From Bombilactobacillus folatiphilus (GTDB lineage: Bacteria; Bacillota; Bacilli; Lactobacillales; Lactobacillaceae): a stretch of DNA of 15,159 bases. A program made the translations under genes and the position numbers. The stretch covers positions 1 through 15,159 of the forward strand of contig NZ_CP093367.1 in the NCBI RefSeq assembly GCF_023380265.1. The letters are read 5' to 3'. Each line of letters starts with the position of its first letter. Positions within the stretch are counted from its first letter, which is position 1. The notes under the pieces are model-generated. The model was given only the letters and a program-made list of their open reading frames with translations. It did not search any database and was not told where the DNA came from. Of this stretch, positions 1 through 15,159 are shown one piece after another.

Positions 1-330
1 TTTAAAGAGGCCTTAATCAATGGCATTGATAAACAATGGGAAAATAATTTTTTGAATGGTGACATCATCATCTTGTCCCGTCAGGATCATCAGTTTAGGG
101 ACACTATTAATCGTTACAATGACCAAATCATTGAACTGATTATGGATATTTTGATGATCACTAACCCTTTAATAAAAGAAAAACCTAAAGTCAAAGCAAT
201 GCTGGTCATGAATCTAATTGAAAATTCGGGCCCCGCATTCTTTAAATTTGACTCTGCTGCACAACAAGAAGCTTATATTGATGAGTTAGTTATGACGATC
301 TACAAGATTTGCTTTGGGAAAGAGTCATAA
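1..330 (+). CDS. TetR/AcrR-type regulator, C-terminal part (5' truncated by window)
   Basis: The frame is open from base 1 and ends at TAA 328-330, giving 109 residues with no start in view. A TTG at 52 also opens the frame, but the 17 upstream codons read as normal protein (FKEALINGID...), so the gene enters from outside the window. The visible part is all-helical with a mixed hydrophobic face and ends in IYKICFGKES, as expected of the ligand-binding and dimerisation domain of a TetR-family repressor. The DNA-binding helix-turn-helix would lie upstream, so the family call rests on fold-like character and position. It lies directly upstream, same strand, of a DHA2 drug exporter, the usual place for its repressor. 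It is not obviously related to the two TetR paralogues further right. Another helical regulator is possible. Confidence 0.6.
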   Translation, partial: FKEALINGIDKQWENNFLNGDIIILSRQDHQFRDTINRYNDQIIELIMDILMITNPLIKEKPKVKAMLVMNLIENSGPAFFKFDSAAQQEAYIDELVMTIYKICFGKES

Positions 331-532
331 GCATGACCAATATGTTAGAAGGTAAAACTTAAGTAAACCGTATCAAACAGGAAAATGCGCTCTAACTGAA
401 AGTATTGGTAACAGTGAGCTTATATATTGGAGTATTTTTATCATTGCTTGGTGTGCTCGGAAAAAGAGAGTTAATTAGAAAAATTAATATTAAAAATCAT
501 TTTAAAAAATTATGGATTGAAGGAAAGTTGAG

Positions 533-2329: not shown

Positions 2330-2352
2330 GTATTTAAATTAACACTTCCCAG

Positions 2353-2380
2353 AGAGCTGATGAAAATCGGCTCTTTTTTT
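2353..2380 (+). terminator. Rho-independent terminator of the DHA2 gene
   Basis: A 9-bp stem (AGAGCTGAT / ATCGGCTCT, one G-U pair) with a 4-nt loop is followed directly by seven T residues. It starts 24 bp after the stop codon of the transporter gene and isolates it from the surface-protein gene downstream. Confidence 0.9.
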
Positions 2381-2634
2381 GGTTACAATTGTTCCACATC
2401 ATACTTATACGGAGATTGTTATTGCTTATATATAATCTGGAAATTAATTAAATTGAAGATAAATTATTAAGTTAATTGCAAACTTTCAGCTGAGGGTTTA
2501 AGATGAAGATGATTTCGCAAACATATTATTAGCTAAAAGGATAATTAATATGTTAAAATGATAAGTTTTGTTTATTGAAAATCTGTAATCGTGATGGCGT
2601 CTTTGGTTAACATTAGTGAGAGGACAAGAGCCTG
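2381..2634 (+). promoter_or_regulatory. Upstream region of the WxL repeat protein with extended -10 promoter
   Basis: This AT-rich spacer contains no ORF of note. The best promoter is an extended -10 element, TG-T-TAAAAT, with the TG at 2551-2552 and the hexamer at 2554-2559. The matching -35 region (2531-2536, AGCTAA) is poor, as is common with extended -10 promoters. A second TATAAT at 2431-2436 lacks a spaced -35. The ribosome binding site GAGAGGA (2618-2624) lies 10 nt before the ATG at 2635. No operator-like repeat stands out. Confidence 0.45.
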
Positions 2635-5600
2635 ATGTTTAAAAAAGTTGTGAAAGTCGTTTTACTTTTAATTTTTGTCGGTAGCGTTTTCTTATTTAAA
2701 AGATTCATTTTATCCCAAGCTGCTAATGTTCAACCAACTGTCATGATTAATACCAAAAATAAAGATGTGGTTAATTTTTTACAAAAATTACAACAATTAT
2801 CTGAGAATACAATCCAAGATCAGGAAGCAACAGATCAGCCTGACCAGCACCAATTGATTAGTACGAAAGTGTCTGCCGACATTCCAGCTACGGGTGTGAG
2901 CGGAACTGATGGAACTTGTGCATGGACTTTAGATGCAGCTGGTAATTTAACGATTAATAGCGGCACTTTAAATCAGAGTAATGATAGAGGTATTGGTTGG
3001 GACAGTGATCATTCTGGCTTTTATGCTTATAGAACGAATATTAAACAAATTGATTTTGCGGGTCCAGTCACTGCACCAGTTAATAGTCAATATTTGTTTC
3101 AGGAAATGTCAAACCTTGTATCATTTACCAATCTGTCTAATTTCATAACAAATCAGACTGTTGATACGTCTTATATGTTTTATGACTGTCGGGGGCTAAT
3201 CAAATTGGATGTAAGTAATTTTGATACTAGTAATGTAACTAATATGTCTGGTATGTTTAGTAGTTGCAACAACGTAACTCATTTGGATGTAAGTAATTTT
3301 GATACTAGTAATGTAACTAATATGTCTGGTATGTTTAGTAGTTGCAACAACGTAACTCATTTGGATGTAAGTGGTTTTGATACCAGTAAAGTTACGAATA
3401 TGTCTAATATGTTTAGTAATTGCCGCAATACTGATCTGGATGTAAGTAATTTTGATACTAGTAATGTAACTAGTATGTCTGGTATGTTTAGTAGTTGCAA
3501 CAACGTAACTCATTTGGATGTAAGTGGTTTTGATACTAGTAATGTAACTAGTATGTCTGGTATGTTTAGTAGTTGCAACAACGTAACTCATTTGGATGTA
3601 AGTAATTTTGATACTAGTAATGTAACTAATATGTCTGGTATGTTTAGTAGTTGCAACAACGTAACTCATTTGGATGTAAGTGGTTTTGATACCAGTAAAG
3701 TTACGAATATGTCTAATATGTTTGATGGTTGCCGCAATACTGATCTGGATGTAAATGGTTTTGATACTAGTAATGTAACTAATATGTCTGGTATGTTTAG
3801 TAGTTGCAACAACGTAACTCATTTGGATGTAAGTGGTTTTGATACCAGTAAAGTGACTAATATGTCTTATATGTTTAGTATTTGTAGTCACTTAACTAGT
3901 TTAGATTTGAGTAATTTTGATACTAGTAAAGTGACTAATATGTCTTATATGTTTCAGGATTGTAGCAAATTGCCCAAGTTAGACGTCGGCAATTTTGATA
4001 CTGGTAAAGTGAACTATATGTCTGGTATGTTTTCTATGTGTTATGGTTTAACTAAATTGGATTTGAATAATTTTGATACTAGTAAAGTGACTAATATGTC
4101 TAGTATGTTTACAGCTTGCAGTGGTTTAACTAAATTGGATTTGAGTAATTTTGATACCAGTAAAGTTACGAATATGTCTGATATGTTTGATAGTTGCACT
4201 AGATTAACTAAATTGGATTTGAATAATTTCGATACTAGTAAAGTGACTAATATGTCTGATATGTTTGATTTTTGTCCTAGTCTTTGGGGGATTCAATTTG
4301 GTTCGCAATTTATAATTCCATCCAATGTATCACCTTCTTTAGCTATGCCTACAATAGGTAATACTTTTATTGATAATGACAAAACCTATCTTGTCACTGC
4401 TGCTGCATGGCAAGATGTCGGCAATGGCAGTGACCATAAGCCTACGGGTCCTGTCTATGATAATAATCAATCACTTGTATCATCTTTAAGTTCGCCACAC
4501 GCACCGTTTACTTATGTTTGGCAAAATGAGTTGCAGGATGTGAAGCCAACATTATCCAATGTATCGGTTACAGATGCAAGTACGAATCAAACTGGGACAA
4601 CAACTTCCGCATTAACTTATTGTTATGATTCAGCGGTTGCTGAGTTGCCTAGTTTAACTGTGAGACTCGGGATTACCGATACCGATAGCACCAAATTTGA
4701 TGTTTACTATGGTATTGATCCTGTAACCGCTATTACGGATGCTAAAGATATCGTGAATAATGCCAATTTTCATAAGCTTCCTGCGTCTGATTTGAACCCT
4801 GGTAGTTATTCGATCACCGATCAAACTGATTTATGCCAAGTAGCTCAACCTAAGTCTGGTGGCCATCGGTTAGTCTTTTATGCTGTGACCAAAGATGCCC
4901 AAGGCGAAGCTGTTAGCCCGGGGAAGATTTCACAGCCGATGACGATTACGACCAAAGAGAATCTTTACGCTAGATTGCATTATAAGAATTCAAACGGTGT
5001 TGTCATTAAAAGTGCTCAACCTGTTATTTTCGGAACTGCGGGTGATGTTATCAAAACTGACGGTTCTGACGATTTAATCCCTCCTTTTATTAGTCATAGG
5101 AACACTCGTTATCAACTCAGCACTGCTAATTCATTCCCTAAAATTGATGCTACGACCTCAGCTGGCATTTCTAAAAATAATCCTAAAGATTTAGATGTCC
5201 TTTATGACGTTGAGGGTGCGGTCACAGTTAATGCGCCGAGTCTTGATTTTGGTAAGGGGGTGCCTTTGGTTAAAAAGCAATATCACTTGCAGAAAGATTC
5301 CGCCGAAAAGTTAATTGTGACAGATACCACGGGAGCTCCTTGTTGGCAGCTATCGTTAGCGATCACACCTTTTTCAAGTGATAAGCAAAATCAAAGTATT
5401 GATGGAATTATGAATTATCAGCCTGTGGGCTTAATTGGCGCCAGTCCGATTCTGATTAGTCAATTTAATGAAACGGATGCTAATAATGTACAGACGGGTT
5501 CTGAATGTATTACCAATATTTCGAATGGTTGGTGGCAAGATAGTCAGCAAACGAGTGGTCCGATGCTAGATATTTCGAATCAATCTGCCGAGATTATACC

Positions 5601-5652
5601 TGGTAACTATCAAGCTACGGCGACTTGGTCGGTGGTCGATTCATTAAATTGA
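2635..5652 (+). CDS. Secreted cell-wall protein: DUF285/BspA-like 26-residue repeats plus C-terminal WxL domain
   Basis: This is a 1005-residue surface protein. Residues 1-30 form a signal peptide (basic MFKK, hydrophobic LLLIFVGSVFLF, likely cleavage after SQAA). An N-terminal domain (about 80-190) is followed by one degenerate and 14 clear 26-residue repeats (191-552) of the type LDVSNFDTSNVTNMSGMF, the bacterial surface 26-residue repeat related to DUF285 and BspA leucine-rich repeats. A linker with beta-sandwich-like segments (about 553-860) leads to a WxL domain. LDFG marks its start, the first WxL motif is C903-W904-Q905-L906 after DTTGAP, and the second Trp (W998-S-V) departs from W-x-L. 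WxL domains hold proteins non-covalently on peptidoglycan, and no LPXTG motif is present. The usual WxL-cluster partners (DUF916 protein, small WxL protein) are absent here. A role in adhesion is inferred from the family. Confidence 0.92.
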   Translation: MFKKVVKVVLLLIFVGSVFLFKRFILSQAANVQPTVMINTKNKDVVNFLQKLQQLSENTIQDQEATDQPDQHQLISTKVSADIPATGVSGTDGTCAWTLDAAGNLTINSGTLNQSNDRGIGWDSDHSGFYAYRTNIKQIDFAGPVTAPVNSQYLFQEMSNLVSFTNLSNFITNQTVDTSYMFYDCRGLIKLDVSNFDTSNVTNMSGMFSSCNNVTHLDVSNFDTSNVTNMSGMFSSCNNVTHLDVSGFDTSKVTNMSNMFSNCRNTDLDVSNFDTSNVTSMSGMFSSCNNVTHLDVSGFDTSNVTSMSGMFSSCNNVTHLDVSNFDTSNVTNMSGMFSSCNNVTHLDVSGFDTSKVTNMSNMFDGCRNTDLDVNGFDTSNVTNMSGMFSSCNNVTHLDVSGFDTSKVTNMSYMFSICSHLTSLDLSNFDTSKVTNMSYMFQDCSKLPKLDVGNFDTGKVNYMSGMFSMCYGLTKLDLNNFDTSKVTNMSSMFTACSGLTKLDLSNFDTSKVTNMSDMFDSCTRLTKLDLNNFDTSKVTNMSDMFDFCPSLWGIQFGSQFIIPSNVSPSLAMPTIGNTFIDNDKTYLVTAAAWQDVGNGSDHKPTGPVYDNNQSLVSSLSSPHAPFTYVWQNELQDVKPTLSNVSVTDASTNQTGTTTSALTYCYDSAVAELPSLTVRLGITDTDSTKFDVYYGIDPVTAITDAKDIVNNANFHKLPASDLNPGSYSITDQTDLCQVAQPKSGGHRLVFYAVTKDAQGEAVSPGKISQPMTITTKENLYARLHYKNSNGVVIKSAQPVIFGTAGDVIKTDGSDDLIPPFISHRNTRYQLSTANSFPKIDATTSAGISKNNPKDLDVLYDVEGAVTVNAPSLDFGKGVPLVKKQYHLQKDSAEKLIVTDTTGAPCWQLSLAITPFSSDKQNQSIDGIMNYQPVGLIGASPILISQFNETDANNVQTGSECITNISNGWWQDSQQTSGPMLDISNQSAEIIPGNYQATATWSVVDSLN
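3205..4290 (+). repeat. Tandem 78-bp coding repeats (14 units) in the surface protein
   Basis: There are fourteen in-frame units of 78 bp (26 residues). Units 3 and 7 are 75 bp because one codon is missing after CRNTD. Units 1, 2, 4-6 and 8 are almost identical at DNA level, while units 9-14 share the protein pattern but differ at many bases. Units 2-3-4 and 6-7-8 share the same order of variants, which indicates duplication of a block of several units. A long open frame on the opposite strand here is a by-product of the repeat. Confidence 0.95.
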
Positions 5653-5711
5653 TGGAAGCATCACGCATTATCATCGTGTTGTTCGGATTAATTATAGAAT
5701 CTGTGGAAATC

Positions 5712-5761
5712 ATAAGCCTTTTGAGCAGGCTAAATCTGGTCTGCTTAAAAGGCTTATTTAG
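5712..5761 (+). terminator. Long stem-loop after the surface-protein gene
   Basis: A 17-bp stem (5712-5728 with 5741-5757, one G-U pair) with a 12-nt loop lies 60 bp after the stop. The T tract after it is weak (TTATTTA), but the stem is long enough to act as a transcription terminator or a 3' stabiliser. The remaining 5762-5839 is AT-rich without recognisable features. Confidence 0.65.
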
Positions 5762-5915
5762 TACGGCTTTTTAGTTAATAAAATTATTTTTTAATTTATT
5801 TTAACACTAACTTTAATAAACGAATGATTTAATTCTTTTAAAAGGAGAATACGATTTTAATGATCTGGATAGATATTTTTATGAAATAAACCAAATAGAT
5901 AGATTCGAAAATGAA

Positions 5916-6104
5916 ATGCCAGTTTATATAAATGATAAACGTAGGGATTTGTTAGAAAAGATAGCTCTAAGTAATACAACAGATTTAGAATTTGTGCGCC
6001 CTATCAAAGCTGATTTAGGAGTAATCCTTTCTAAGGAAGCGCTATTATATGAAACAAATCAGTTGCTTGCTAACAAGTGGACTACTGATCCAGAAACCGT
6101 ATGA
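5916..6104 (+). CDS. Piece 1 of the frame-disrupted gene, 62 aa
   Basis: The open frame begins at an internal ATG without a ribosome binding site and ends at TGA 6102-6104. Its reading extends upstream to at least 5862 as plausible coding sequence. The last four bases overlap the next piece as ATGA. It is charged, helical in character and not recognised. It probably represents the N-terminal segment of the composite protein rather than a free gene. Confidence 0.4.
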   Translation: MPVYINDKRRDLLEKIALSNTTDLEFVRPIKADLGVILSKEALLYETNQLLANKWTTDPETV

Positions 6105-6373
6105 ACCAAGATTTGGCTGAGAAAGCTGATCTGTTAGTTATCGGTTTGTTCCAAGATTTTACTGAGAATAAAATTTTAGAGCTGCTTAATTTTGCTGACC
6201 AGAAAGATATAAATATTTACTTTTTGTTAGGTCGAGATATGTCGTCTTTGTCTTGGCTAGTAGCCAAACAGTTTTTGAGAAAGAAAAATGTTCAGCAATT
6301 GCCTAATGGATTGTTTTCACATAAAAAAATGAATTCTTATCAGGATCAAACATCTTGGCAGATTTTACACTAA
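6101..6373 (+). CDS. Piece 2 of the frame-disrupted gene, 90 aa
   Basis: The piece starts at ATG within the ATGA overlap and has no ribosome binding site, so at best it is translationally coupled. Residues 10-17 (DLLVIGLF) and 37-44 (INIYFLLG) look like buried beta-strands of an alpha/beta fold. The frame of piece 3 is open upstream to 6325, overlapping a run of seven A residues at 6323-6329, a likely site for a lost base. Not recognised as a separate protein. Confidence 0.4.
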   Translation: MNQDLAEKADLLVIGLFQDFTENKILELLNFADQKDINIYFLLGRDMSSLSWLVAKQFLRKKNVQQLPNGLFSHKKMNSYQDQTSWQILH

Positions 6374-7005
6374 GCGGCTTAAATGCAGCGCTACCATATA
6401 ATGGTCCTTTTGCTCCTTCAGTTGGTCATGCAGGACAATCCTTTTTTAAAGATGCCAGTAAAGCCATCAAAACCTCAGAGATTCAATGTCAAACCTTTTT
6501 CTTTTTATCCTGCAATAATTTAATTTTTAATGATACGAAATTATATGGACCAAGATACAATTTAGTACTCAATGCTATTGATGGTTATGCTTCGACCATA
6601 GTTGCCGCGATAGGTGTTCAATCAGCAGATAATCCGGAATTAGATTTAGTCATGAAGCACGCGGGAAATAAAAATATATCACGGATGTTAAATAAAAAAT
6701 TGTCCGATGTGCAACCTTTTGTATCTATTATTCATGTGGGACTACCTGAAAATAGTGAAGTTGATGGAACAACATCCGCAGCTGTTAGGTTAACTCCAAC
6801 CACAAAAATTATTTTATCTAGATTGTCGTCATATATTTCTTCCATGATGCTAGGACAAGAGCATTTAATTTATAAATTAGCAAAAAACATTTTGTTTGAC
6901 TTTATGCAACGTACTCGGCGTGGAACTTTTGGTGTTTCTGATGCTGAAGCTAAAGATTTTGAATTGTCGTTGATCAATCGTGTGAACCCTTTTTCTAAAA
7001 AATAG
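6355..7005 (+). CDS. Piece 3 of the frame-disrupted gene, 216 aa, His/Cys-containing domain
   Basis: This is the largest piece. It opens with a TTG at 6355 with at best a weak AGGA upstream, so the frame may simply continue from piece 2. It is alpha/beta in character, with two candidate active-site residues: the His of SVGHAGQ (about residue 25) and the Cys of FFFLSCNN (about residue 53). A glycine-rich hydrophobic segment, DGYASTIVAAIGV, follows. This is reminiscent of CHAT/caspase-like folds, without a firm match. The C-terminus is helical and basic (RVNPFSKK). It is followed after 8 bp by the zinc-ribbon gene, suggesting one transcript. Confidence 0.5.
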   Translation: MADFTLSGLNAALPYNGPFAPSVGHAGQSFFKDASKAIKTSEIQCQTFFFLSCNNLIFNDTKLYGPRYNLVLNAIDGYASTIVAAIGVQSADNPELDLVMKHAGNKNISRMLNKKLSDVQPFVSIIHVGLPENSEVDGTTSAAVRLTPTTKIILSRLSSYISSMMLGQEHLIYKLAKNILFDFMQRTRRGTFGVSDAEAKDFELSLINRVNPFSKK

Positions 7006-7013
7006 CTGAATTA

Positions 7014-7205
7014 ATGATGAATAATTCAGTAGATTCACTGCAAGAATTCGATAGTTATAATGTTTATCGTTCGGTTCTAGATAAGATGAGTATTCAAAAA
7101 ATGCGCTGTGAATGTGGGAATGTAGCAACTTTTTGTCAGTATTTGCCAGAAGTTAATGGGATATTTCCGGTTGCTATCGTTGTGGTGATAAGACAACAGG
7201 AATGA
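7014..7205 (+). CDS. Zinc-ribbon gene, 5' piece, 63 aa
   Basis: N-terminal piece with tandem ATG codons at 7014 and 7017 and the first two cysteines (CEC) of a probable zinc ribbon. Its last 14 codons are probably out of frame. Confidence 0.4.
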   Translation: MMNNSVDSLQEFDSYNVYRSVLDKMSIQKMRCECGNVATFCQYLPEVNGIFPVAIVVVIRQQE

Positions 7206-7543
7206 AAAACATGTCTAATTTAAAATTTAGTTGTGATTCCTATAACAATGATGACTTAACGATCCATTATAGGATTGAAATTACCCCCAGTGAGAAGGGT
7301 GATATTTATTATGGGATACAACTGCCTAGTTATGTAGAACAATATTCTACAACACAGTTTAAAGTGACTCGAATCAAAATGAAAACACCGCAGACTAAAA
7401 TTATTACTGGAGAGATTGCCTTTTCTGAGCAAACCCAGTTACAAAGTTATTATATGAAACTAATCATCGTTCAAAATGGAGGAATCCAAATCAGTAGAAG
7501 CTTTTTTAATTTGATTGAACCAAACAAAGCTAAACTAATTTGA
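7202..7543 (+). CDS. Zinc-ribbon gene, 3' piece, 113 aa beta-rich domain
   Basis: The piece begins at an ATG in an ATGA overlap, without a ribosome binding site. It is rich in alternating hydrophobic residues (LTIHYRIEI, YYMKLIIV), suggesting a beta-sandwich. Upstream codons in the same frame carry the second cysteine pair. Confidence 0.45.
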   Translation: MKNMSNLKFSCDSYNNDDLTIHYRIEITPSEKGDIYYGIQLPSYVEQYSTTQFKVTRIKMKTPQTKIITGEIAFSEQTQLQSYYMKLIIVQNGGIQISRSFFNLIEPNKAKLI

Positions 7544-7616
7544 TGTACAATTTATTTTGGACGTTATGGGTAATGAATAATATTGTTAATATTTGTGTTG
7601 GGAGTGGTGATACATT

Positions 7617-8156
7617 ATGTTATCTTTTGGTAGAAAACCACTATATCGACCGTTAATGGTTAGTTTTGTTATTAGTGCAGTTTGTGGTTTGTTTGTTGGT
7701 TCCGTGTTTAGATACGATTTGGGCTTTTTAACTTTTATCATTTGCTTTATTTTGGCTATTTTAAATTATGCCAGCAAGATTGATATTTTAGATGGTTTTT
7801 TAAAAATTAAGCGCCCAAAAATTTATTACTATGATATGAGTACTTTGACGAAACGTATTCTGTTAGTGATATTTCCGTTTAGGCGGCCGCAAAATATCGA
7901 TCTAAGTTCTATTGCAGATTATCAATTGCAAGGTGACTATAATAAGTTTGAGGATATCAAATTACCCTTGACCATGACTACTGCTTATGGCCTCTTTTTT
8001 CCGGCTATCTTATCAATTAAAAATTCTATGGTTTTCAATTTGTATCTTAAGAATTCAAAAGTGATTGTTATTAATTTATCAATGGACTATGTTTACTATC
8101 CTGATGAATTTAGACAAAAGATAGATTCACTACAATCTTATTTGCCACGCAGATAG
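7617..8156 (+). CDS. Two-helix membrane protein, unknown function
   Basis: A 179-residue protein, not recognised. After a short basic N-terminus, two closely spaced hydrophobic helices form a hairpin (about residues 13-29 and 34-50). A soluble domain of about 125 residues follows, with alternating strands (KVIVINLSM, YVYYPDEF) and a C-terminal amphipathic helix. The layout is like bacterial membrane-anchored PH-type domains, but no motif proves this. The ATG at 7617 follows an in-frame TGA at 7608 and has GGAG at 7601-7604, about 12 nt away. It follows the frame-disrupted pair on the same strand after 73 bp and may belong to the same locus. No terminator is visible between it and the next TetR gene. 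Confidence 0.7.
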   Translation: MLSFGRKPLYRPLMVSFVISAVCGLFVGSVFRYDLGFLTFIICFILAILNYASKIDILDGFLKIKRPKIYYYDMSTLTKRILLVIFPFRRPQNIDLSSIADYQLQGDYNKFEDIKLPLTMTTAYGLFFPAILSIKNSMVFNLYLKNSKVIVINLSMDYVYYPDEFRQKIDSLQSYLPRR

Positions 8157-8219
8157 AGTGGTGAAAAATTGATGACAAAAAAAGTTACTTATTAATAATA
8201 AATTATTCCGAATTCAATT

Positions 8220-8242
8220 CAGTATTTTATAAAAAAATGCTG
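8220..8242. promoter_or_regulatory. Inverted repeat upstream of TetR paralogue 1 (operator candidate)
   Basis: Arms CAGTATTTT (8220-8228) and AAAATGCTG (8234-8242) are complementary at 8 of 9 positions around a 5-bp centre. It lies 52 bp before the start of the adjacent TetR-type gene, a typical position for an autoregulatory operator. No clear -35/-10 pair could be fixed around it. Confidence 0.35.
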
Positions 8243-8293
8243 TATCGTAAAAGTATGTATTCAATATTTTTTTGTTAAGGAGATAGTGTTTCG

Positions 8294-8839
8294 ATGGCCA
8301 AGTTAGATCCCCGAGTCCGGAAAACGAAATCAAGAATTCAACACGAGTTAGTATTGATGCTCAGTTATCAAGATATTAATGATATTTCTATTACTAAATT
8401 GTGTAATCAAGCGCAAATTAACCGTTCGACTTTTTACAAGCATTACGATTCAACCCTTGAAGTCTTGGAAGAAATTGAATCTGAAGTGATTCAAAAATTT
8501 GAAGAATATTTACGTCAACAACGTCGGAAGATTGATGTGTCCAATCGTGAACAAATGTGGACGATGTATTTACAGCTGTTGCAGTTTTATCAATCCAATC
8601 CAGACATGATTCAAGCTTTGTTTGTGTATCCGATCAATAAAACTTTCAAAGCAGATTTGCTCAATTTTTCGATTCAATACAATACTTATACGGATAGTTA
8701 TTATCAACAAGCTTATACAATTGCGGGTGGCTTAGAGATGATTGAATTGTGGGTCAAGCGTGACTTTGATTTGTCACCGGAGCATCTTTGTCGGTTAATG
8801 ATGGAGATGGGACCATTTCATGATGATTCTTCCAAGTAA
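8294..8839 (+). CDS. TetR/AcrR-family transcriptional regulator, paralogue 1
   Basis: A 181-residue one-component regulator, presumably a repressor. The N-terminal helix-turn-helix is clear: ISITKLCNQAQINRSTFYKH, about residues 31-50, ending in the TFYxHY signature of the family. The C-terminal half (about 60-175) is a helical ligand and dimer domain of the DhaS-like type. The ATG at 8294 has AAGGAGA (8277-8283) about 10 nt upstream. It is about 75% identical by hand count to the second TetR at 12591-13166, including the segment QYNTYTDSYYQQAYTIAGGL, so the two are duplicates. Unlike that copy it has no transporter beside it. Downstream lies a small membrane protein with its own promoter. Target and inducer are unknown. 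Confidence 0.9.
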   Translation: MAKLDPRVRKTKSRIQHELVLMLSYQDINDISITKLCNQAQINRSTFYKHYDSTLEVLEEIESEVIQKFEEYLRQQRRKIDVSNREQMWTMYLQLLQFYQSNPDMIQALFVYPINKTFKADLLNFSIQYNTYTDSYYQQAYTIAGGLEMIELWVKRDFDLSPEHLCRLMMEMGPFHDDSSK

Positions 8840-8860
8840 AGTGCATTCTCAATTATTGTC

Positions 8861-8869
8861 TGCTATAAT
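8861..8869 (+). promoter_or_regulatory. Extended -10 promoter of the small membrane protein
   Basis: TG-C-TATAAT is a perfect -10 hexamer with the extended TG motif, 41 bp before the ATG at 8910. The -35 region is not conserved. It overlaps no coding sequence and lies 22 bp after the TetR stop. Confidence 0.6.
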
Positions 8870-8909
8870 TTTCATTTAAATTATAAATTTGGTAAAGGGG
8901 TCTAGTCTT

Positions 8910-9290
8910 ATGGAAATAGGCAGTTTAGCCGAGTGGATTACTGGCATTGCAGAGGTGGCGGCCGTGGTTGTAGCTCTATTTTTACCATCTTATCAGGCTC
9001 GCAAAGCGCGCAAAGTTAGTCAGCAGCGGATAATGAATTTAGTGCGCAGCTTGTTGAATGACTTATTGTCTAAAGTTAAAGCAACTCCGGATATGGATAT
9101 TGCAGCGTCTGATGAATATAGTGATTTTCAAAAGCTAGTTTCCATCTTGGCAGTTACCGATGCTGATTTAGTCAATATTGATATTTTGCGACAAATTGAG
9201 GGCTTATTAACAGATAGCGATCGTGGAGATACAACCGAACAACTTGTCGTTAAAGTAGAAAACCTGATGAATAATTATCTGTCAAAATAG
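8910..9290 (+). CDS. Small single-helix membrane protein, unknown
   Basis: The frame can be opened at TTG 8889, but the proper start is ATG 8910: AAAGGGG (8894-8900) lies 9 nt upstream and the -10 promoter at 8864-8869 precedes it. The product is 126 residues. An N-terminal hydrophobic helix (about residues 8-29, GIAEVAAVVVALFLP) is followed by a basic stop-transfer segment (QARKARKVSQQR), and then about 80 helical residues ending MNNYLSK, predicted cytoplasmic. The family is not recognised. No terminator is visible before the T-box promoter downstream. Confidence 0.7.
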   Translation: MEIGSLAEWITGIAEVAAVVVALFLPSYQARKARKVSQQRIMNLVRSLLNDLLSKVKATPDMDIAASDEYSDFQKLVSILAVTDADLVNIDILRQIEGLLTDSDRGDTTEQLVVKVENLMNNYLSK

Positions 9291-9319
9291 TGATTCACAT
9301 CGTGTTGACTGATCTTTTC

Positions 9320-9348
9320 TTGACAAACACCAAATAATATTGTAAATT
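9320..9348 (+). promoter_or_regulatory. Promoter of the T-box/hydratase transcript
   Basis: A consensus -35 TTGACA (9320-9325), a 17-bp spacer and -10 TAAATT (9343-9348) with TG just before it. Transcription should begin near 9355, immediately before the T-box leader. Confidence 0.75.
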
Positions 9349-9354
9349 GCTCAT

Positions 9355-9633
9355 AACAATTAAAATAAAATTAAGGCTCATGAAGGAAACTTTATCTTGT
9401 GGGTACAGTCAGCGAGTTGTCGGTTGGTGCAAGACAATCTGTCAAACAAGATTATGATCAGCCTAAAAGAGTGCAGTGCTGAAATTTAGTAAGCACTGCT
9501 GGTGGACAATCATTAACATGGATGCAAAATGAATACGTTTTGTAGAGTGGTATTTAAGCTGTTTAAATAACTAAAATAAGGTGGTACCGCGTTAATTGAC
9601 GCCCTTAGCAAAAAATGCTAAGGGCGTTTTTTT
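9355..9633 (+). ncRNA. T-box leader (tRNA-sensing riboswitch) with terminator
   Basis: This is a canonical T-box. Stem I runs from about 9375 (AGGCT) to 9464 (AGCCT), with an AG bulge (AGCGAG 9411-9416) and a distal loop (GGTTGGTGCAA) closed by TTGTC/GACAA. A stem III-like hairpin with arms AGTGCT/AGCACT lies near 9475-9497. The T-box AAGGTGGTACCGCG is at 9578-9591, with bulge TGGT 9582-9585 whose last base pairs with a tRNA discriminator A. The competing terminator is an 11-bp stem (9600-9610 with 9616-9626) plus seven T. The specifier lies in ATTATGATC (9451-9459). ATG (Met) or ATC (Ile), each followed by A, are the best candidates and TAT (Tyr) is possible; I cannot fix it by eye. Uncharged cognate tRNA would permit read-through into the hydratase gene. 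Confidence 0.93.
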
Positions 9634-9638
9634 AATTT

Positions 9639-9657
9639 AAGGAGGTGAGGCAAAATT
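9639..9657 (+). promoter_or_regulatory. Extra strong ribosome binding site before an in-frame ATT
   Basis: AAGGAGGTGA (9639-9648) is a near-perfect Shine-Dalgarno sequence just after the T-box terminator. No ATG, GTG or TTG stands at the proper distance in the hydratase frame, but ATT at 9655 is in frame with the hydratase ATG at 9706 with no stop between (ISDLVGISLGANLGGKR). It is either a remnant of a lost first gene or a near-cognate start. The normal start has its own AGGAGG (9693-9698). Confidence 0.5.
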
Positions 9658-9705
9658 TCAGATCTTGTTGGGATTAGTTTAGGAGCCAATTTAGGAGGAA
9701 AAAGG

Positions 9706-10506
9706 ATGACCGATTTTAACGATTTAACAGACGACCAAATGAGTTTAGCAGAGAATTTATATCAAGCTTATGAAAATCATCAGCCGTTAGACCAAGCTAA
9801 ATATGCAAAAGTTTTGGATGATGAGGATACGGCTTACCAGGTTCAACAATATTTAATGCAACTAAAAAATGAACCGATTGGTGGCTACAAGGTGTCTTTG
9901 ACGAGTGAGGAAACTCAAAAAATGTTTGATTCTCAAAATCCGCTATATGGTGTGCAAGTAGTTAGTCATTTCGTACCATCACCTTCGCATTTTCGAACTT
10001 CACAACTGATGGATCCACTAGCCGAGGTGGAATTGATGTTTACAGCCACGCAAGATTTACAACCAAATGATAGCTTAGAAGATTTAATGCGAAAAACGAC
10101 GATAGCCCCCGACATTGAGGTTCCTGATTCCCGTTTTTCGGATTGGTTTCCCGATTTGTCTAAGTACTTAGTGGTTGCTGACGCAGCTGTGGGCGGGTAC
10201 GTTGTTTATGGCCGACAAGTTCCCACCACTCAAGCTTTTGCCTCAGTTGATGCCGTTACGCAAGTAACTTGTGAATTATTGCATGACGGTCAAACACTCA
10301 AGACAGGTGCTGCAACAGAAGTTTTGAGTAACCCATTGTTGTCTTTACAATGGTTGGTACAGAAACTGGCGGCTCAAGGTGTTCAATTTTTAGCAGGACA
10401 GCGTGTTTCCAGCGGAACTTTTTTGTTGCCGGAACGTGTCACTACAGGTCAATGGCAGGCCGAATTTAATCATGATTTAGGTGATGTAGAGTTGACAGTG
10501 CAGTAA
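9706..10506 (+). CDS. 2-keto-4-pentenoate hydratase-like protein (MhpD/FAH-type superfamily)
   Basis: A 266-residue cytosolic enzyme, the usual length for the 2-keto-4-pentenoate hydratase / 2-oxo-hepta-3-ene-dioate hydratase group. These add water to, or act on, 2-oxo-enoic acids using a divalent metal. Family features are GGYKVSLTS (about residues 59-67), LYGVQV (about 80-85), the acidic metal-site strand AEVELMF (about 106-112) and PDIEVPDSRFSDWF (about 127-140). ATG 9706 has AGGAGG 7 nt upstream. It is the only gene behind the T-box and is closed by its own terminator. No neighbouring gene completes an aromatic meta-cleavage pathway, so the true substrate in this organism is open. T-box control suggests a link to amino-acid supply. 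Confidence 0.88.
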   Translation: MTDFNDLTDDQMSLAENLYQAYENHQPLDQAKYAKVLDDEDTAYQVQQYLMQLKNEPIGGYKVSLTSEETQKMFDSQNPLYGVQVVSHFVPSPSHFRTSQLMDPLAEVELMFTATQDLQPNDSLEDLMRKTTIAPDIEVPDSRFSDWFPDLSKYLVVADAAVGGYVVYGRQVPTTQAFASVDAVTQVTCELLHDGQTLKTGAATEVLSNPLLSLQWLVQKLAAQGVQFLAGQRVSSGTFLLPERVTTGQWQAEFNHDLGDVELTVQ

Positions 10507-10573
10507 ATGCTAGATACTGATTTGTCCTGCGTTTATGTCTAAAGGTTTCTACAGTTTAAATCAAAAAAATATT

Positions 10574-10612
10574 AAAGGACTAACTTCGAAATTTAATCGA
10601 TTTTAGTCCTTT
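10574..10612. terminator. Terminator shared by the hydratase gene (+) and lipoprotein operon (-)
   Basis: A 9-bp perfect stem (AAAGGACTA 10574-10582 / TAGTCCTTT 10604-10612) is followed by T residues on the plus strand. On the minus strand it is followed by TAATATTTTTTT, so it can stop both converging transcripts. Confidence 0.85.
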
Positions 10613-10616
10613 TTTG

Positions 10617-11255
10617 TTAATTTTTATAATCCTGCAAGTTGATTTTATAAGAGGTTCCTACAGACTTACTATCCACGTTATGCATATCTTTTTTGGCAGT
10701 AGCAAAAACCGGATGCTTCTTATTATTTAATTCATAGCCCCGGACTACTTTGATGCTTTTACCAGGTAATAATTGAGCGTTTAAAGGTTTAACGTATTTT
10801 TGGTTATAGTCAGTAGCTTTACCAATATTTGTACTGGCATCTGCTGTTGAAGATCCATCTGAATTAATAGTGGGAAAGAGTGCCGCGGCAACATTAAAAA
10901 CTGGCCTTAAGTCATAATTTGAACTGCTATTGCTTTGGTGGAAGTTCAGATAGTTTAATAAAGCTGACGGTTTAATTCGATGCTTCGATTTGTTTTGGAT
11001 CCAGAAAGTAACGATTAAACCGTCGCTTTGAGTTTTGTTTGAATGGCCAACTTGGGTTTTTAAAATTTTGATTTTAGTTTGCCTATTTTCAAAAATTCCA
11101 TTCTGAAAAGTGGTTGCGGACGGATGGTTTTGATCAGTAGATATATTGCCGCCAATGTCAAATTTCATACCACCAATCTCAAACTTTGAATCACATCCTG
11201 ATAATAATATGGCTGATAATAAAGTAATGATGGTTAATTTGTGACCCTTATTCAT
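10617..11255 (-). CDS. DUF5067-like lipoprotein
   Basis: A 212-residue membrane-anchored lipoprotein. Residues 1-20 form a signal peptide with the lipobox LLSG-C, and Cys21 is the predicted lipidated residue. A Gly-rich linker (SKFEIGGMKFDIGG) follows. Residues about 53-205 form an Ig-like beta domain of the DUF5067 type (KIKILKTQVG...LIVTFWIQNKS...LLPGKSIKVVRGYELNN), common in lactobacilli and of unknown function. The start has AAGGAGA about 8-10 nt upstream. It lies 18 bp behind the MFS gene on the same strand and is probably cotranscribed from the promoter at 12482-12509. Nothing links it mechanistically to transport beyond the operon. Confidence 0.85.
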   Translation of the reverse strand: MNKGHKLTIITLLSAILLSGCDSKFEIGGMKFDIGGNISTDQNHPSATTFQNGIFENRQTKIKILKTQVGHSNKTQSDGLIVTFWIQNKSKHRIKPSALLNYLNFHQSNSSSNYDLRPVFNVAAALFPTINSDGSSTADASTNIGKATDYNQKYVKPLNAQLLPGKSIKVVRGYELNNKKHPVFATAKKDMHNVDSKSVGTSYKINLQDYKN

Positions 11256-11273
11256 ATATATCTTTCTCCTTAA

Positions 11274-12452
11274 TTATTGAACTTTTGAGGATTGTTTCCT
11301 GTTCACGTGATTTAACGCTAAGACTAAGACGAAGGTTACGACTGTAAAAACCACTCCGCCTGCCCCAATATCTTGGACTTTGAATTGTAGTGTGACAATG
11401 CCCCCTACGGCTGAACCCAACGAAATACCTAAATTTGAAAAAATCGAATTAATTGATGATGATAAAACGAGGCTTTGGGGATATTCTTTTTCTGCAATGC
11501 CCATTATGTGTAATTGAATAGGCGAATTAATTAAGTACATCAAAAAGCCAACACATAAAATATCAATGACCCCCAGCAATTGATTAGTTAATAACTTCGG
11601 CATGAATAGTAAAACGAAAAATTCGATAGCGTAATACCACGGCATTATTTTTAAACCGTGTTTATTTGCAATTTTGCCACTGAATTGATTACTTAATAAT
11701 GACATCAAACCATAGGCAACTAATAAGAAGGTGATCGTTTGATGATTAAAGCCTAGAGTTTGGGACAAGATTGGCCGTAAATAAGTATAAAAAACATATA
11801 CCCCTGCTAAGCTAAACATAATAATTCCAACACTTAAAAAAATTCGAGGATCTTTGAAAATTATAAATTGTTTCCAAACGGAATCTGCTTGTGTTTGATT
11901 TAATTGATGAGGTAATACTTTCATAATTAAAATTAGGGCGATAATGCTAAATAAAACAATCGTCACAAAAGTTATGCGCCATCCCCAAGTTGTACTAATC
12001 CAGGTACCTAGTGGTACACCGAAGACTGATGCAATACTGAATCCAGAAAAAATCCAGCTCACGAGCCAAGCTTTTTTCTCCATCGGGGCAATTTTGGCTG
12101 CGAAAGTCATGGCTAAAGAAACTAAAGAACCAGAAACTAGTGCTACAATGATACGAGAAATAACTAACCAACTATAATTAGGTGCGATAACGGTTACTAA
12201 GTTGCCTAAGATAAAGATGCCAATTAAAACTAGTAATGCGTGGTAGAGATTGTTCTTTAATAATGAAGTTATAACGGGCGTACTAAAAGCATAAACCAAC
12301 GCAAAGATTGTTACTAACGACCCTGCAGTTGCCACGGTAACATTGAATTGATGTGCTAAATCATCCAAAATGCCAATAATGATGAATTCACTGAACCCTA
12401 AAACAAATGATAATAAAATCAAAGCCCAGCTTTGTAAGTAGAATTTTTTCAT
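11274..12452 (-). CDS. 12-TM MFS efflux protein, DHA1/AraJ-like
   Basis: A 392-residue Major Facilitator Superfamily protein with 12 hydrophobic helices, of the AraJ-type drug or sugar efflux group. TM1 has the family pattern GFSEFIIIGILDDLA (about residues 19-33). The TM5 region carries SIASVFGVPLGTWIS (about 138-152), matching antiporter motif C. The loop after TM2 lacks the basic residues of a full motif A (LLKNNLYHALL instead of G..DR.GR), as is seen in some members of this group. ATG has GAGGAA about 7 nt upstream. It is transcribed divergently from the TetR gene at 12591, which is the likely repressor, and is followed by a cotranscribed lipoprotein. Substrate unknown. Confidence 0.92.
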   Translation of the reverse strand: MKKFYLQSWALILLSFVLGFSEFIIIGILDDLAHQFNVTVATAGSLVTIFALVYAFSTPVITSLLKNNLYHALLVLIGIFILGNLVTVIAPNYSWLVISRIIVALVSGSLVSLAMTFAAKIAPMEKKAWLVSWIFSGFSIASVFGVPLGTWISTTWGWRITFVTIVLFSIIALILIMKVLPHQLNQTQADSVWKQFIIFKDPRIFLSVGIIMFSLAGVYVFYTYLRPILSQTLGFNHQTITFLLVAYGLMSLLSNQFSGKIANKHGLKIMPWYYAIEFFVLLFMPKLLTNQLLGVIDILCVGFLMYLINSPIQLHIMGIAEKEYPQSLVLSSSINSIFSNLGISLGSAVGGIVTLQFKVQDIGAGGVVFTVVTFVLVLALNHVNRKQSSKVQ

Positions 12453-12471
12453 GCTATTCCTCGTCTTTTTA

Positions 12472-12509
12472 CTAATATTAGGTTATAAAAAATTAAAGGT
12501 AGTTGTCAA
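12472..12509 (-). promoter_or_regulatory. Promoter and operator candidate of the MFS-lipoprotein operon
   Basis: Read on the minus strand: -35 TTGACA (12504-12509), 16-bp spacer, -10 TATAAC (12482-12487). A perfect 10-bp palindrome, CTAATATTAG (12472-12481), abuts the -10 on its downstream side, where a bound TetR protein would block initiation. Confidence 0.7.
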
Positions 12510-12511
12510 AT

Positions 12512-12538
12512 ACATTTACTAATTATTTGATAAAATGT
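12512..12538 (+). promoter_or_regulatory. Promoter region of TetR paralogue 2
   Basis: An extended -10, TG-A-TAAAAT (12528-12536), lies 54 bp before the ATG at 12591. Imperfect inverted arms ACATTTA (12512-12518) and TAAAATGT (12531-12538) flank it and could be a second operator half-site pair. Divergent transcription from 12482-12509 would let one repressor control both genes. Confidence 0.45.
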
Positions 12539-12590
12539 TTAATATTTATGTTCAAATTATTGTATTGGTCAGTAAGGAGATACTTCTACA

Positions 12591-13166
12591 ATGGTAAAAG
12601 TTGATGCGAGAGTATGTAAAACTAAATTAAGAATTCGACATGAATTGGTAACGATGCTACAGCATCAAAATATTAATAATATTTCTATTACGAAATTATG
12701 TGATCAAGCGCAGATTAATCGTTCCACTTTTTATACACATTACAACTCAACGATTGAGGTTTTGGAGAAAATGGAATCAGAAGTCCTTCAAAAATCCAAG
12801 GAATATTTACGCCAGCAGCGTCAAACGTTTGATGTACGTGATCATCAAAAAATGTGGGTCATGTATTTGAAACTTTTAAATTTTTATAAGGCTAATCCTG
12901 ATATGACTCGGGCTTTGTTTGTTTATCCTATTAATAAAAAATTCAAGACAGATTTGTTTAATTTTTCAGATCAATATAACACTTATACAGATAGTTATTA
13001 TCAACAGGCTTATACGATTGCAGGTGGCTTAGAGATGATTGAATTGTGGGTTAAGCATGACTTTGATTTGTCTCCTGAGCGCTTGTGCAAATTGATGGTG
13101 GAGATGGGCCCCTCTTTAACGATAACGGTACCACTTATAATCGCTTTAATGAGCGGTCAAGAATAA
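12591..13166 (+). CDS. TetR/AcrR-family regulator, paralogue 2, with altered C-terminus
   Basis: A 191-residue regulator with helix-turn-helix ISITKLCDQAQINRSTFYTH (about residues 31-50) and a DhaS-like C-terminal domain. ATG 12591 has AAGGAGA about 11 nt upstream, as in paralogue 1. About 75% identity to paralogue 1 (8294-8839) runs to residue 174 (EMGP), then the copies part. Here the end is hydrophobic (SLTITVPLIIALMSGQE), while paralogue 1 ends FHDDSSK. One extra C in the CCCC at 13109-13112 would give a hydrophilic end, LFNDNGTTYNRF..., stopping at 13174, so a single-base loss is possible. The last 31 bp lie inside the terminal palindrome. It probably represses the divergent MFS operon. 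Confidence 0.88.
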   Translation: MVKVDARVCKTKLRIRHELVTMLQHQNINNISITKLCDQAQINRSTFYTHYNSTIEVLEKMESEVLQKSKEYLRQQRQTFDVRDHQKMWVMYLKLLNFYKANPDMTRALFVYPINKKFKTDLFNFSDQYNTYTDSYYQQAYTIAGGLEMIELWVKHDFDLSPERLCKLMVEMGPSLTITVPLIIALMSGQE

Positions 13167-13195
13167 GGGCCTGATCTATCAAGCGCCCGTTTTTA
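13167..13195 (+). terminator. Terminator of TetR paralogue 2
   Basis: GGGC (13167-13170) pairs with GCCC (13185-13188), with an inner TGAT/ATCA pair, followed by GTTTTTATT. It starts directly after the TAA at 13164-13166. A mirror copy lies at 15100-15128 in the right arm. Confidence 0.7.
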
Positions 13196-13701
13196 TTAGC
13201 TATACGGATTCGCATGATACTTTTTTCGATCAAGCATTGACCAAGTTCAATAAAAATAATAAATGTAGAATCAGATGAATTGGCTAAGTTTAAGCTTTTT
13301 GTGTTTATCTGGCTTAAAAAAGTATAATTTATCAACAAATATTAAAACTATATAGATAGATTTTATAAATTACTATGGGCTTAAGAACTAAGTTAAAAAA
13401 TACGATTTAATGATAGTTGCTGATGGTAATGTTTACTTTAAGGAAATCAAAGTAATACTTAGAAGTGAAGAATCTTATCGATTGTTATAAAACAGATTTT
13501 AAACAAAAAATATGTTTGAAGTATTGTCAACATATATCGATACGTGTTGGCAATTAATTATGTCATGAGGCAAGAGATCACATATCAAAATTCAAAAATT
13601 AGATAAAAGACCGGTTATTATTCTGCATGGCGAACTATCTTCTAAAGAGAAGCTGGATTAAAGTAAACGGCTTTTTTGTGACTTTTAAAGGGGATATTTT
13701 C
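13196..13701. other. Gene-poor subterminal region with short coding-like scraps
   Basis: There is no complete gene. Two short plus-strand stretches read like protein: 13153-13264 (KGLIYQAPVFISYTDSHD...) and 13392-13487, containing ATG 13410 (VKKYDLMIVADGNVYFKEIK), neither with a ribosome binding site. They may be decayed fragments. The region also holds the 30-bp imperfect palindrome at 13524-13553. Confidence 0.5.
13524..13553. repeat. 30-bp imperfect palindrome in the terminal arm
   Basis: The arms TTGTCAACATATAT and ATACGTGTTGGCAA are complementary at 11 of 14 positions around a CG centre (inner ATCGAT). It is a plausible dimer-binding site. The mirror copy is at 14742-14771. Confidence 0.6.
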
Positions 13702-13842
13702 ATGTTAGTCTTTATCATTTTCCGCGATTTTGATAATAGTGTAGCTCAAGGAGTTAATGAAAATGATTTTATACGGATGGCTTCAGATTATTTTAAATCG
13801 AATCTGACGGATAATTATGTTAGTCGATTGATAAATTTCTAA
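13702..13842 (+). CDS. Small subterminal protein, 46 aa
   Basis: The frame opens at 13627, but ATG 13702 is the better start because AAAGGGGA (13687-13694) lies 8 nt upstream. The product, MLVFIIFRDFDNSV... ending YVSRLINF, starts with a hydrophobic strand and continues as a charged helical stretch. It is not recognised. It is the only gene with a proper ribosome binding site in the terminal arm. It could be the stub of a longer gene. Confidence 0.45.
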   Translation: MLVFIIFRDFDNSVAQGVNENDFIRMASDYFKSNLTDNYVSRLINF

Positions 13843-14147
13843 ACTGTTAAATTTAGTGTCTATTTTGTTAAGTAAAAACAATCTATATGAGAATAAACTT
13901 GATTATAATAAAGGTTTAGTATAGTGATTTAGCTTTCCGAAAGTATTCGCTGATTCTTTTTTAGTGTAGATTATAAAAAAAGTTAATAAAACTATAGTCT
14001 TATTGCTAAAAAAGCGGTGAATCTTTTATTTTATCTGGAATAGTTAGAGATATAGGACAATAAAAAAAGACGTGTCAAAATAACACAGTATATATATATA
14101 TATACTGTGTGTCATAATAATACGAAAAATAAGAGTCCTATGAGCTA
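13843..14147. other. Terminal non-coding AT-rich stretch up to the palindrome centre
   Basis: No gene is visible. It contains paired CTTTTTTAG / CTAAAAAAG arms (about 13960 and 14010), the 28-bp AT palindrome at 14083-14110, and the last 16 bases GAGTCCTATGAGCTA before the symmetry centre. The mirrored stretch 14148-14452 is the same sequence in reverse. Confidence 0.6.
14083..14110. repeat. 28-bp perfect palindrome with alternating TA core
   Basis: Arms ACACAGTATATATA and TATATATACTGTGT meet without spacer, 37 bp from the centre of the large palindrome. The mirror copy is at 14185-14212. It is independent of the large symmetry because it is palindromic within one arm. Confidence 0.9.
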
Positions 14148-14452
14148 TAGCTCATAGGACTCTTATTTTTCGTATTATTATGACACACAGTATATATATA
14201 TATATACTGTGTTATTTTGACACGTCTTTTTTTATTGTCCTATATCTCTAACTATTCCAGATAAAATAAAAGATTCACCGCTTTTTTAGCAATAAGACTA
14301 TAGTTTTATTAACTTTTTTTATAATCTACACTAAAAAAGAATCAGCGAATACTTTCGGAAAGCTAAATCACTATACTAAACCTTTATTATAATCAAGTTT
14401 ATTCTCATATAGATTGTTTTTACTTAACAAAATAGACACTAAATTTAACAGT

Positions 14453-14593
14453 TTAGAAATTTATCAATCGACTAACATAATTATCCGTCAGATTCGATTT
14501 AAAATAATCTGAAGCCATCCGTATAAAATCATTTTCATTAACTCCTTGAGCTACACTATTATCAAAATCGCGGAAAATGATAAAGACTAACAT
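14453..14593 (-). CDS. Mirror copy of the 46-aa subterminal protein
   Basis: Identical to 13702-13842 in reverse complement, with ATG at 14591-14593 and its AAAGGGGA ribosome binding site mirrored. If the large palindrome is a hairpin end or an artefact, this is the same gene read twice and not a second copy. Confidence 0.4.
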   Translation of the reverse strand: MLVFIIFRDFDNSVAQGVNENDFIRMASDYFKSNLTDNYVSRLINF

Positions 14594-15099
14594 GAAAATA
14601 TCCCCTTTAAAAGTCACAAAAAAGCCGTTTACTTTAATCCAGCTTCTCTTTAGAAGATAGTTCGCCATGCAGAATAATAACCGGTCTTTTATCTAATTTT
14701 TGAATTTTGATATGTGATCTCTTGCCTCATGACATAATTAATTGCCAACACGTATCGATATATGTTGACAATACTTCAAACATATTTTTTGTTTAAAATC
14801 TGTTTTATAACAATCGATAAGATTCTTCACTTCTAAGTATTACTTTGATTTCCTTAAAGTAAACATTACCATCAGCAACTATCATTAAATCGTATTTTTT
14901 AACTTAGTTCTTAAGCCCATAGTAATTTATAAAATCTATCTATATAGTTTTAATATTTGTTGATAAATTATACTTTTTTAAGCCAGATAAACACAAAAAG
15001 CTTAAACTTAGCCAATTCATCTGATTCTACATTTATTATTTTTATTGAACTTGGTCAATGCTTGATCGAAAAAAGTATCATGCGAATCCGTATAGCTAA

Positions 15100-15159
15100 T
15101 AAAAACGGGCGCTTGATAGATCAGGCCCTTATTCTTGACCGCTCATTAAAGCGATTATA
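15100..15159 (-). repeat. Mirror copy of the TetR 3' end and its terminator
   Basis: 15129-15159 repeats the last 31 bp of the TetR gene (13136-13166) and 15100-15128 its terminator, in reverse orientation. The window ends inside the copy, so whether the repeat includes more of the gene cannot be seen. Confidence 0.9.

Follow-up and report, generated by a model that had tools for sequence, protein, structure and literature searches.

The window, a 15,159-bp stretch of the Bombilactobacillus folatiphilus genome (G000), corresponds to positions 797196-812354 of the 1,622,785-bp contig C1 (G000:C1:797196-812354) and ends in a palindrome. Its last 2024 bases form a perfect inverted repeat without a spacer, as the initial annotation had described: two arms of 1012 nt each (13136-14147 and 14148-15159) are 100% complementary with 0 nt between them, the centre reads GAGC-TATA-GCTC at 14142-14153, and the axis falls between bases 14147 and 14148. 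The extra palindromes reported beside this axis are real as well. As far as the sequence allows, the best overall explanation is that the chromosome of this Bombilactobacillus is linear, that its terminal inverted repeats are 15.3 kb long and that it ends at 14147/14148 in a covalently closed hairpin tip; to this we assign a probability of roughly 0.88. The features of the window that bear on this reading are the following.

1..14147, no strand: lies in the left-hand copy of the terminal inverted repeat (15,318 bp); that copy begins 1,171 bp ahead of the window, at C1:796025
13136..14147, + strand: left arm, the portion mirrored inside the window (1012 nt, 100% complementary)
14148..15159, - strand: right arm, either hairpin read-through or the other, identical chromosome end (mirror on the window and on C1)
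14138..14157, no strand: tip core CTATGAGCTATAGCTCATAG, with its axis at 14147/14148; the proposed physical end, with a TATA loop (20-mer shared with other tips)
14172..14186, + strand: box GTATTATTATGACAC, +25 to +39 from the axis, a candidate binding site (register of the tip alignment)
14109..14123, - strand: mirrored box in the left arm (inverted repeat and tip alignment)
14083..14110, no strand: satellite palindrome ACACAGTATATA...TATATACTGTGT, 14 bp per arm (none seen in other tips)
14185..14212, no strand: mirror of the satellite palindrome (inverted repeat)

Position 13136, at which the repeat had been taken to begin, is no biological border; it mirrors the point at which the window stops. 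On C1 the perfect arms run to 15,318 nt each (C1:796025-811342 and C1:811343-826660), and window bases 1-14147 all lie within the left copy. The two arms form a palindrome of about 30.6 kb in the terminus region (C1:796025-826660), and the flanks beyond them differ from each other. The strand at window positions 14060-14235 is predicted to fold into a perfect hairpin whose loop consists of the four bases TATA (-92.1 kcal/mol, z = -29.74, equalled by 0 of 200 shuffles).

The location of the palindrome points to the end of a chromosome. The axis lies 50 bp off the midpoint of C1. Among sampled 5-kb pieces the GC skew is positive in all from 10 kb to the axis (lowest value 0.005) and negative in all past the axis to the end of C1, as well as in the first 10 kb; within the arms a change of sign is bound to occur, but nothing forces the pieces outside them to agree. 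The joined ends of C1, near gyrB and gyrA (both named by eye), fall inside an open frame of 687 codons that we take to be GdpP-like. Because the axis coincides with the skew flip, about half a contig from the origin side, the palindrome sits at the place expected for the ends of a linear chromosome whose origin is central. The initial annotation had suggested that the axis may be the end of a linear plasmid or chromosome; since it lies in a 1.62-Mb contig that carries gyrBA, topA and hslVU, the chromosome is retained and the plasmid dropped. A second contig of the assembly, C2 (15,159 bp), is letter-identical to the window and to C1:797196-812354, and is probably a redundant fold-back copy of a chromosome end and no plasmid.

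The same tip occurs on the chromosome of a sister species. In Bombilactobacillus thymidiniphilus SG4_A1 (G003; NZ_CP093365.1, recorded as 'chromosome, complete genome', 1,494,436 bp) the identical axis 20-mer is found at both record ends, and a core match stands at 6189. One axis comes after base 6197 and the other after base 1488239, and 6,197 bp separate each from its contig end. The sequence folds back past both axes, and the terminal repeats measure 16,099 bp at 99.96%. Sampled pieces have negative skew throughout 6-746 kb and positive skew throughout 780-1,488 kb, and the single flip falls between 746 and 780 kb. For both species the sampled stretches show one skew flip in the middle, with the ends at the terminus, the arrangement of a linear chromosome with a central origin.

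With at most 2 mismatches, the core was found in three of 397 genomes of the family (G000, G003 and the draft genome G004), all from Bombilactobacillus, and the reversed control gave 0 among the matches listed; the three tip-bearing genomes are 3 of 7 congeners. The core variant of G004, CTATGGGCTATAGCCCATAG, is altered on both sides such that the changes compensate each other and the palindrome is preserved. One axis lies 14 bp into contig C6 and the other 63 bp short of the end of contig C7. Counted from the first base of the core, the tips agree over 29 nt and differ from there on. Cores at contig ends are how hairpin ends would look in a draft assembly. Two broader searches were set aside. 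A DNA search of 120 relatives returned many matches at E values up to 1, of which those in G000 and G003 alone were kept, the rest being short A+T-rich stretches; a half-core pattern with at most 1 mismatch was exact in G004 only, and in the other seven genomes the one-mismatch matches numbered 21, fewer than the 56 of the reversed control.

Related tips are also found on plasmids. We examined 6 of 122 plasmid records with protein C, a member of the gene module discussed below (from Lactobacillus, Enterococcus pELF2, Staphylococcus and Melissococcus), and all six carry a tip. On the Lactobacillus johnsonii G2A plasmid (NZ_CP040855.1, a linear record) the identical 20-mer marks two axes, at 12011 and at 112093, from which the DNA is mirrored to the record ends at 99.9% or more. 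The start of the pELF2 record, TATAGGGAATAGGAC, is a TATA-centred tip; both ends of the linear Staphylococcus warneri record NZ_CP134465.1 carry TAGCCCATAG, and the circular Staphylococcus aureus record NZ_CP134804.1 carries AGCCCATAG at one end, with nothing similar at the other. Staphylococcus simulans NZ_CP017429.1 (circular record) contains a 23.3-kb palindrome, with about 11.7 kb per arm in the stretch analysed and an extra A at the axis. In Melissococcus plutonius pMP1 (NZ_AP021886.1, likewise recorded as circular) the perfect arms around CCCTATTCCC-TATA-GGGAATAGGG are 7,071 nt long; the axis falls at record base 58814, and the skew switches sign at about that position. The two latter plasmids, although labelled circular, combine long palindromes of the same tip type with RusA and protein C, and may be linear.

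Across ten aligned tips (pMP1 excluded), AG at +2/+3, ATAG at +7 to +10 and AC at +38/+39 are common to 10 of 10. T stands at +1 wherever that position is present; the S. aureus record is without that base. A box of the form GTxTC-N5-GAxAC, ending at +39, occurs in the same register in Bombilactobacillus and Lactobacillus (with A in place of the first G in G004); the staphylococcal tips have GTTC...GAAC, and the box of pELF2 is less clear. The tip of B. folatiphilus shares with the pELF2 end and the other aligned tips a TATA-centred palindrome of the form TATA-G-N3-ATAG. Two matches of an 18-mer scan in contigs of Deltaproteobacteria metagenome-assembled genomes and two in viral contigs had arms of at most 16 bp and were set aside, as was a comparison of the tip DNA with phage records, which gave 12 records at a best E of about 0.03 and none that matched the palindrome.

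The hairpin telomere with a pELF1-like TATA loop that the initial annotation had proposed is supported by this recurrence on a sister chromosome and on plasmids. The comparison of the central sequence with known linear plasmid ends, which it had recommended, returned the same 20-mer on the L. johnsonii linear plasmid and a related tip on pELF2. We infer that the hairpin is closed in the cell, and the comparisons make it highly probable that 14147/14148 is a hairpin end and that the topology of the chromosome is linear.

A module of three overlapping genes, designated A, B and C, follows galM in B. folatiphilus (C1:760480-762083). Protein A is, by eye, helix-turn-helix-like. Protein B belongs to the RusA family (PF05866; E 6.5e-19, 69.2 bits against a cut-off of 22.8) and is predicted to be a RusA-type Holliday-junction resolvase; the motif PDIDNL...D, presumably catalytic, is kept in five aligned RusA proteins. 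The RusA profile had no match in the PDB at 0.01, and E. coli-type RusA (1q8r) was found only at E 0.26. An AlphaFold model of protein C is all helical (predicted local distance difference test 87.2, predicted template modelling score 0.78). Viral structures matched this model in 0 cases at E values up to 0.001; profile matches of protein C in the PDB were viral coiled coils (best E 0.0029) and were read as composition. Protein C had no match among phage records, and no relative was confirmed among the viral contigs.

The trio A-RusA-C, whose presence on a replicon we use as an unpublished mark of our own, is found in G000, G003 and G004 (twice), and also on pELF2 and the L. johnsonii plasmid. 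Both plasmids carry RusA as a fused pair, G000 as a single protein. Identity between the plasmid and G000 proteins is 26-29% for A and C and 36-46% for RusA. Within the genus, RusA is confined to the three tip-bearing genomes. A profile of protein C matched 5 of 397 family genomes, strongly in the same three only; the weak matches in G401 (1.9e-11; RusA is not among the neighbours, and the 40 kb analysed hold no tip) and in G007 (4.9e-4) were set aside. With tblastn, protein C of L. johnsonii was found in 113 plasmid records (101 from Enterococcus, 7 from Staphylococcus, 4 from Melissococcus and 1 from Lactobacillus) and that of pELF2 in 122 (102, 14, 4 and 1, respectively, and 1 from Mammaliicoccus). 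RusA adjoins C in the staphylococcal and Melissococcus records that were opened, and the end of C lies 293 bp from the tip in L. johnsonii, 373 bp in S. warneri and 379 bp in S. aureus.

Part of the genus has lost XerC and XerD. The XerD model TIGR02225 scored above its cut-off in 83 of 100 relatives. In Bombilactobacillus, G005 and G006 are above the cut-off and G002 matches at 1.1e-76; no gene of XerC/D grade was found with this model in G000 (4.1e-16), G001 (1.1e-21), G003 (9.4e-6) or G004 (no match). The xerC locus reads topA-xerC-hslV-hslU-galM in G005; in G000, topA and hslV lie 100 bp apart and xerC is missing (gene names by eye). Outside the genus, G036 and G039 of the same family have no XerC/D-grade match, no core and no strong protein C. 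As a linear chromosome forms no circular dimers, XerC and XerD could be lost. A telomere resolvase gene, which the initial annotation had suggested looking for, did not emerge: a search of G000 for a ResT/TelK-type protelomerase (PF16684) gave 0 matches at E values up to 10, and control genomes matched in 2 of 14.

Replication that rounds a hairpin leaves palindromic junctions that need resolution. We propose that replication from the central origin would round both hairpins and give a head-to-head dimer whose junctions are the palindrome. Protein A would read and bind the paired boxes, and the TATA-centred core would ease extrusion of the palindrome as a cruciform. RusA, together with the helical protein C, would make paired cuts in the cruciform, the conserved tail of protein C may link the complex, and ligase would seal two hairpins. 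SbcD is present in B. folatiphilus and B. thymidiniphilus, and the tips would therefore need guarding from it, perhaps by A or C, as TelN guards the ends of N15. In excerpts of PMC12624138, TelN is described as protecting the N15 ends, and linearised E. coli as able to dispense with XerCD/dif. In assembly, reads would pass through the hairpin and, because both chromosome ends are identical, these would be joined into a false circle with a 30.6-kb palindrome at its terminus. Judged by the sequence comparisons, we lean towards resolution of the replicated ends by the RusA module instead of a protelomerase, and the module is possibly a new kind of end-processing gene set. That at least three Bombilactobacillus species have a linear chromosome run by such a set, and have lost XerC/XerD, we consider slightly better than an even bet.

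Several observations weigh against this reading. The two ends of B. folatiphilus are indistinguishable, as the repeats are identical, and the three tip-bearing congeners belong to one genus and are no independent events. G001 also has no XerC/D-grade genes, yet is without the core, RusA or protein C. RusA occurs in 25 of 100 relatives, so that its presence alone means little, and the module of B. folatiphilus lies about 50 kb from the tip and does not adjoin it. A predicted loss of SbcCD did not hold: SbcD, a threat to hairpins, is present in G000 and G003 (the match in G004 is weak, 4e-17, as is that in the XerCD-bearing G006). The search with PF16684 covered G000 only.

The alternative that survives best accepts the linear hairpin chromosome and has its ends made by an unrecognised protelomerase or other enzyme, with the RusA module in an accessory role in recombination, end protection or replication. 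In its favour, RusA enzymes are usually general junction resolvases, the PF16684 search was limited to G000, and G000 has two phage-integrase-like genes (PF00589), one with an internal stop. However, PF00589 has no match in G004, a genome rated 100% complete, so that the integrases do not qualify as a general resolvase. A tyrosine recombinase is neither named in the annotation of NZ_CP040855.1 nor found in 15 of its proteins scanned with Pfam, and in three records (L. johnsonii, S. warneri and S. aureus) the module is separated from the tip by 293-379 bp. We regard this alternative as a serious one that falls somewhat short of an even chance.

Hybrid ends, with one hairpin and one protein-capped end, would follow the pELF plasmids, which are published as hybrid (in the excerpted text of PMC6863802 and PMC13417996), and the identical repeats of B. 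folatiphilus make its two ends indistinguishable. Hybrid ends are nevertheless improbable: the B. thymidiniphilus record shows fold-back at either end, and two hairpin-type tips are found both in G004, where they differ, and on the L. johnsonii plasmid. Open ends of the Streptomyces invertron type would fit the presence of terminal inverted repeats, yet the fold-back at the tip speaks against them.

A circular chromosome that truly holds a perfect 30.6-kb palindrome at its terminus would agree with the closure of the contig inside a gene on the origin side. Long perfect palindromes are cut by SbcCD. The presence of SbcD and the missing XerC/D-grade genes in B. folatiphilus, and the B. thymidiniphilus record, which is unclosed and folds back on both sides, make such a chromosome very improbable. 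A fold-back artefact of library or assembly can scarcely be credited: fold-back reads would yield the same picture, and C2 duplicates the stretch, but three replicons (G000, B. thymidiniphilus and the L. johnsonii plasmid) share the 20-mer at their axes, with related tips in six more, and the fold-back of one end cannot yield two different flanks.

The terminal repeat has other contents. A protein of 1005 residues with DUF285 repeats (78-bp repeat units in the DNA) is encoded at window positions 2635-5652, inside the repeat, and is likely a surface protein. Two related helix-turn-helix-type regulators (TetR-like by eye) lie at 8294-8839 and 12591-13166 and share 74% DNA identity over 300 nt. 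Window positions 7656-8157 match the B. thymidiniphilus terminal repeat over 503 bp at 88% identity in the opposite orientation; besides this stretch, one 27-nt match and nothing further aligned between the window and that repeat.

A linear chromosome would be unexpected in lactobacilli, and the host is a bee-associated lactic acid bacterium. Judged by the titles listed, in a search that left subscription journals and bioRxiv mostly outside, we found no report of a linear chromosome in Bombilactobacillus or other Lactobacillaceae, and none that ties RusA to enterococcal linear plasmids or hairpin telomeres. Hairpin chromosomes are a known kind; the combination of host, tip and module was not found in the literature searched. 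One genus here allows XerCD-bearing species to be compared with XerCD-less, telomere-bearing ones, a candidate gene set for end maintenance is provided for the pELF plasmids of hospital enterococci, and records labelled circular, such as pMP1 and the S. simulans plasmid, may conceal linear replicons.

Borrelia and Agrobacterium use protelomerases. With these and with Candidatus Phytoplasma mali, B. folatiphilus would share a linear chromosome with hairpin ends; it differs from the first two in that no PF16684 match was found in G000. In Ca. Phytoplasma mali the terminal inverted repeats are likewise long (42.9 kb), and the end-forming enzyme is unproven, according to the part of PMC2459194 available. 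Poxvirus concatemers are resolved by a Holliday-junction resolvase. The logic proposed here would be similar, in that a junction resolvase cleaves the cruciform extruded from an inverted-repeat junction, but enzyme family and host are unrelated and the likeness is one of analogy. The L. johnsonii G2A plasmid shares with B. folatiphilus the identical 20-mer at both axes, the boxes and the module, and differs in being a plasmid, with the module beside the tip and a fused RusA pair. In the available portion of PMC6863802, pELF1 is linear by gels, its left end is presumed from reads and mfold to be a hairpin with a TATA loop (5'-TATA-3'), and its right end is protein-capped. The likeness of pELF1 and pELF2 to the present case lies in the TATA-centred tip and, in pELF2, the three-gene module with RusA. 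In the pELF plasmids the right end is protein-capped and RusA is a fused pair (pELF2), whereas here a whole chromosome is concerned, with a hairpin-type tip at either chromosome end of the sister species, a single RusA and the loss of Xer.

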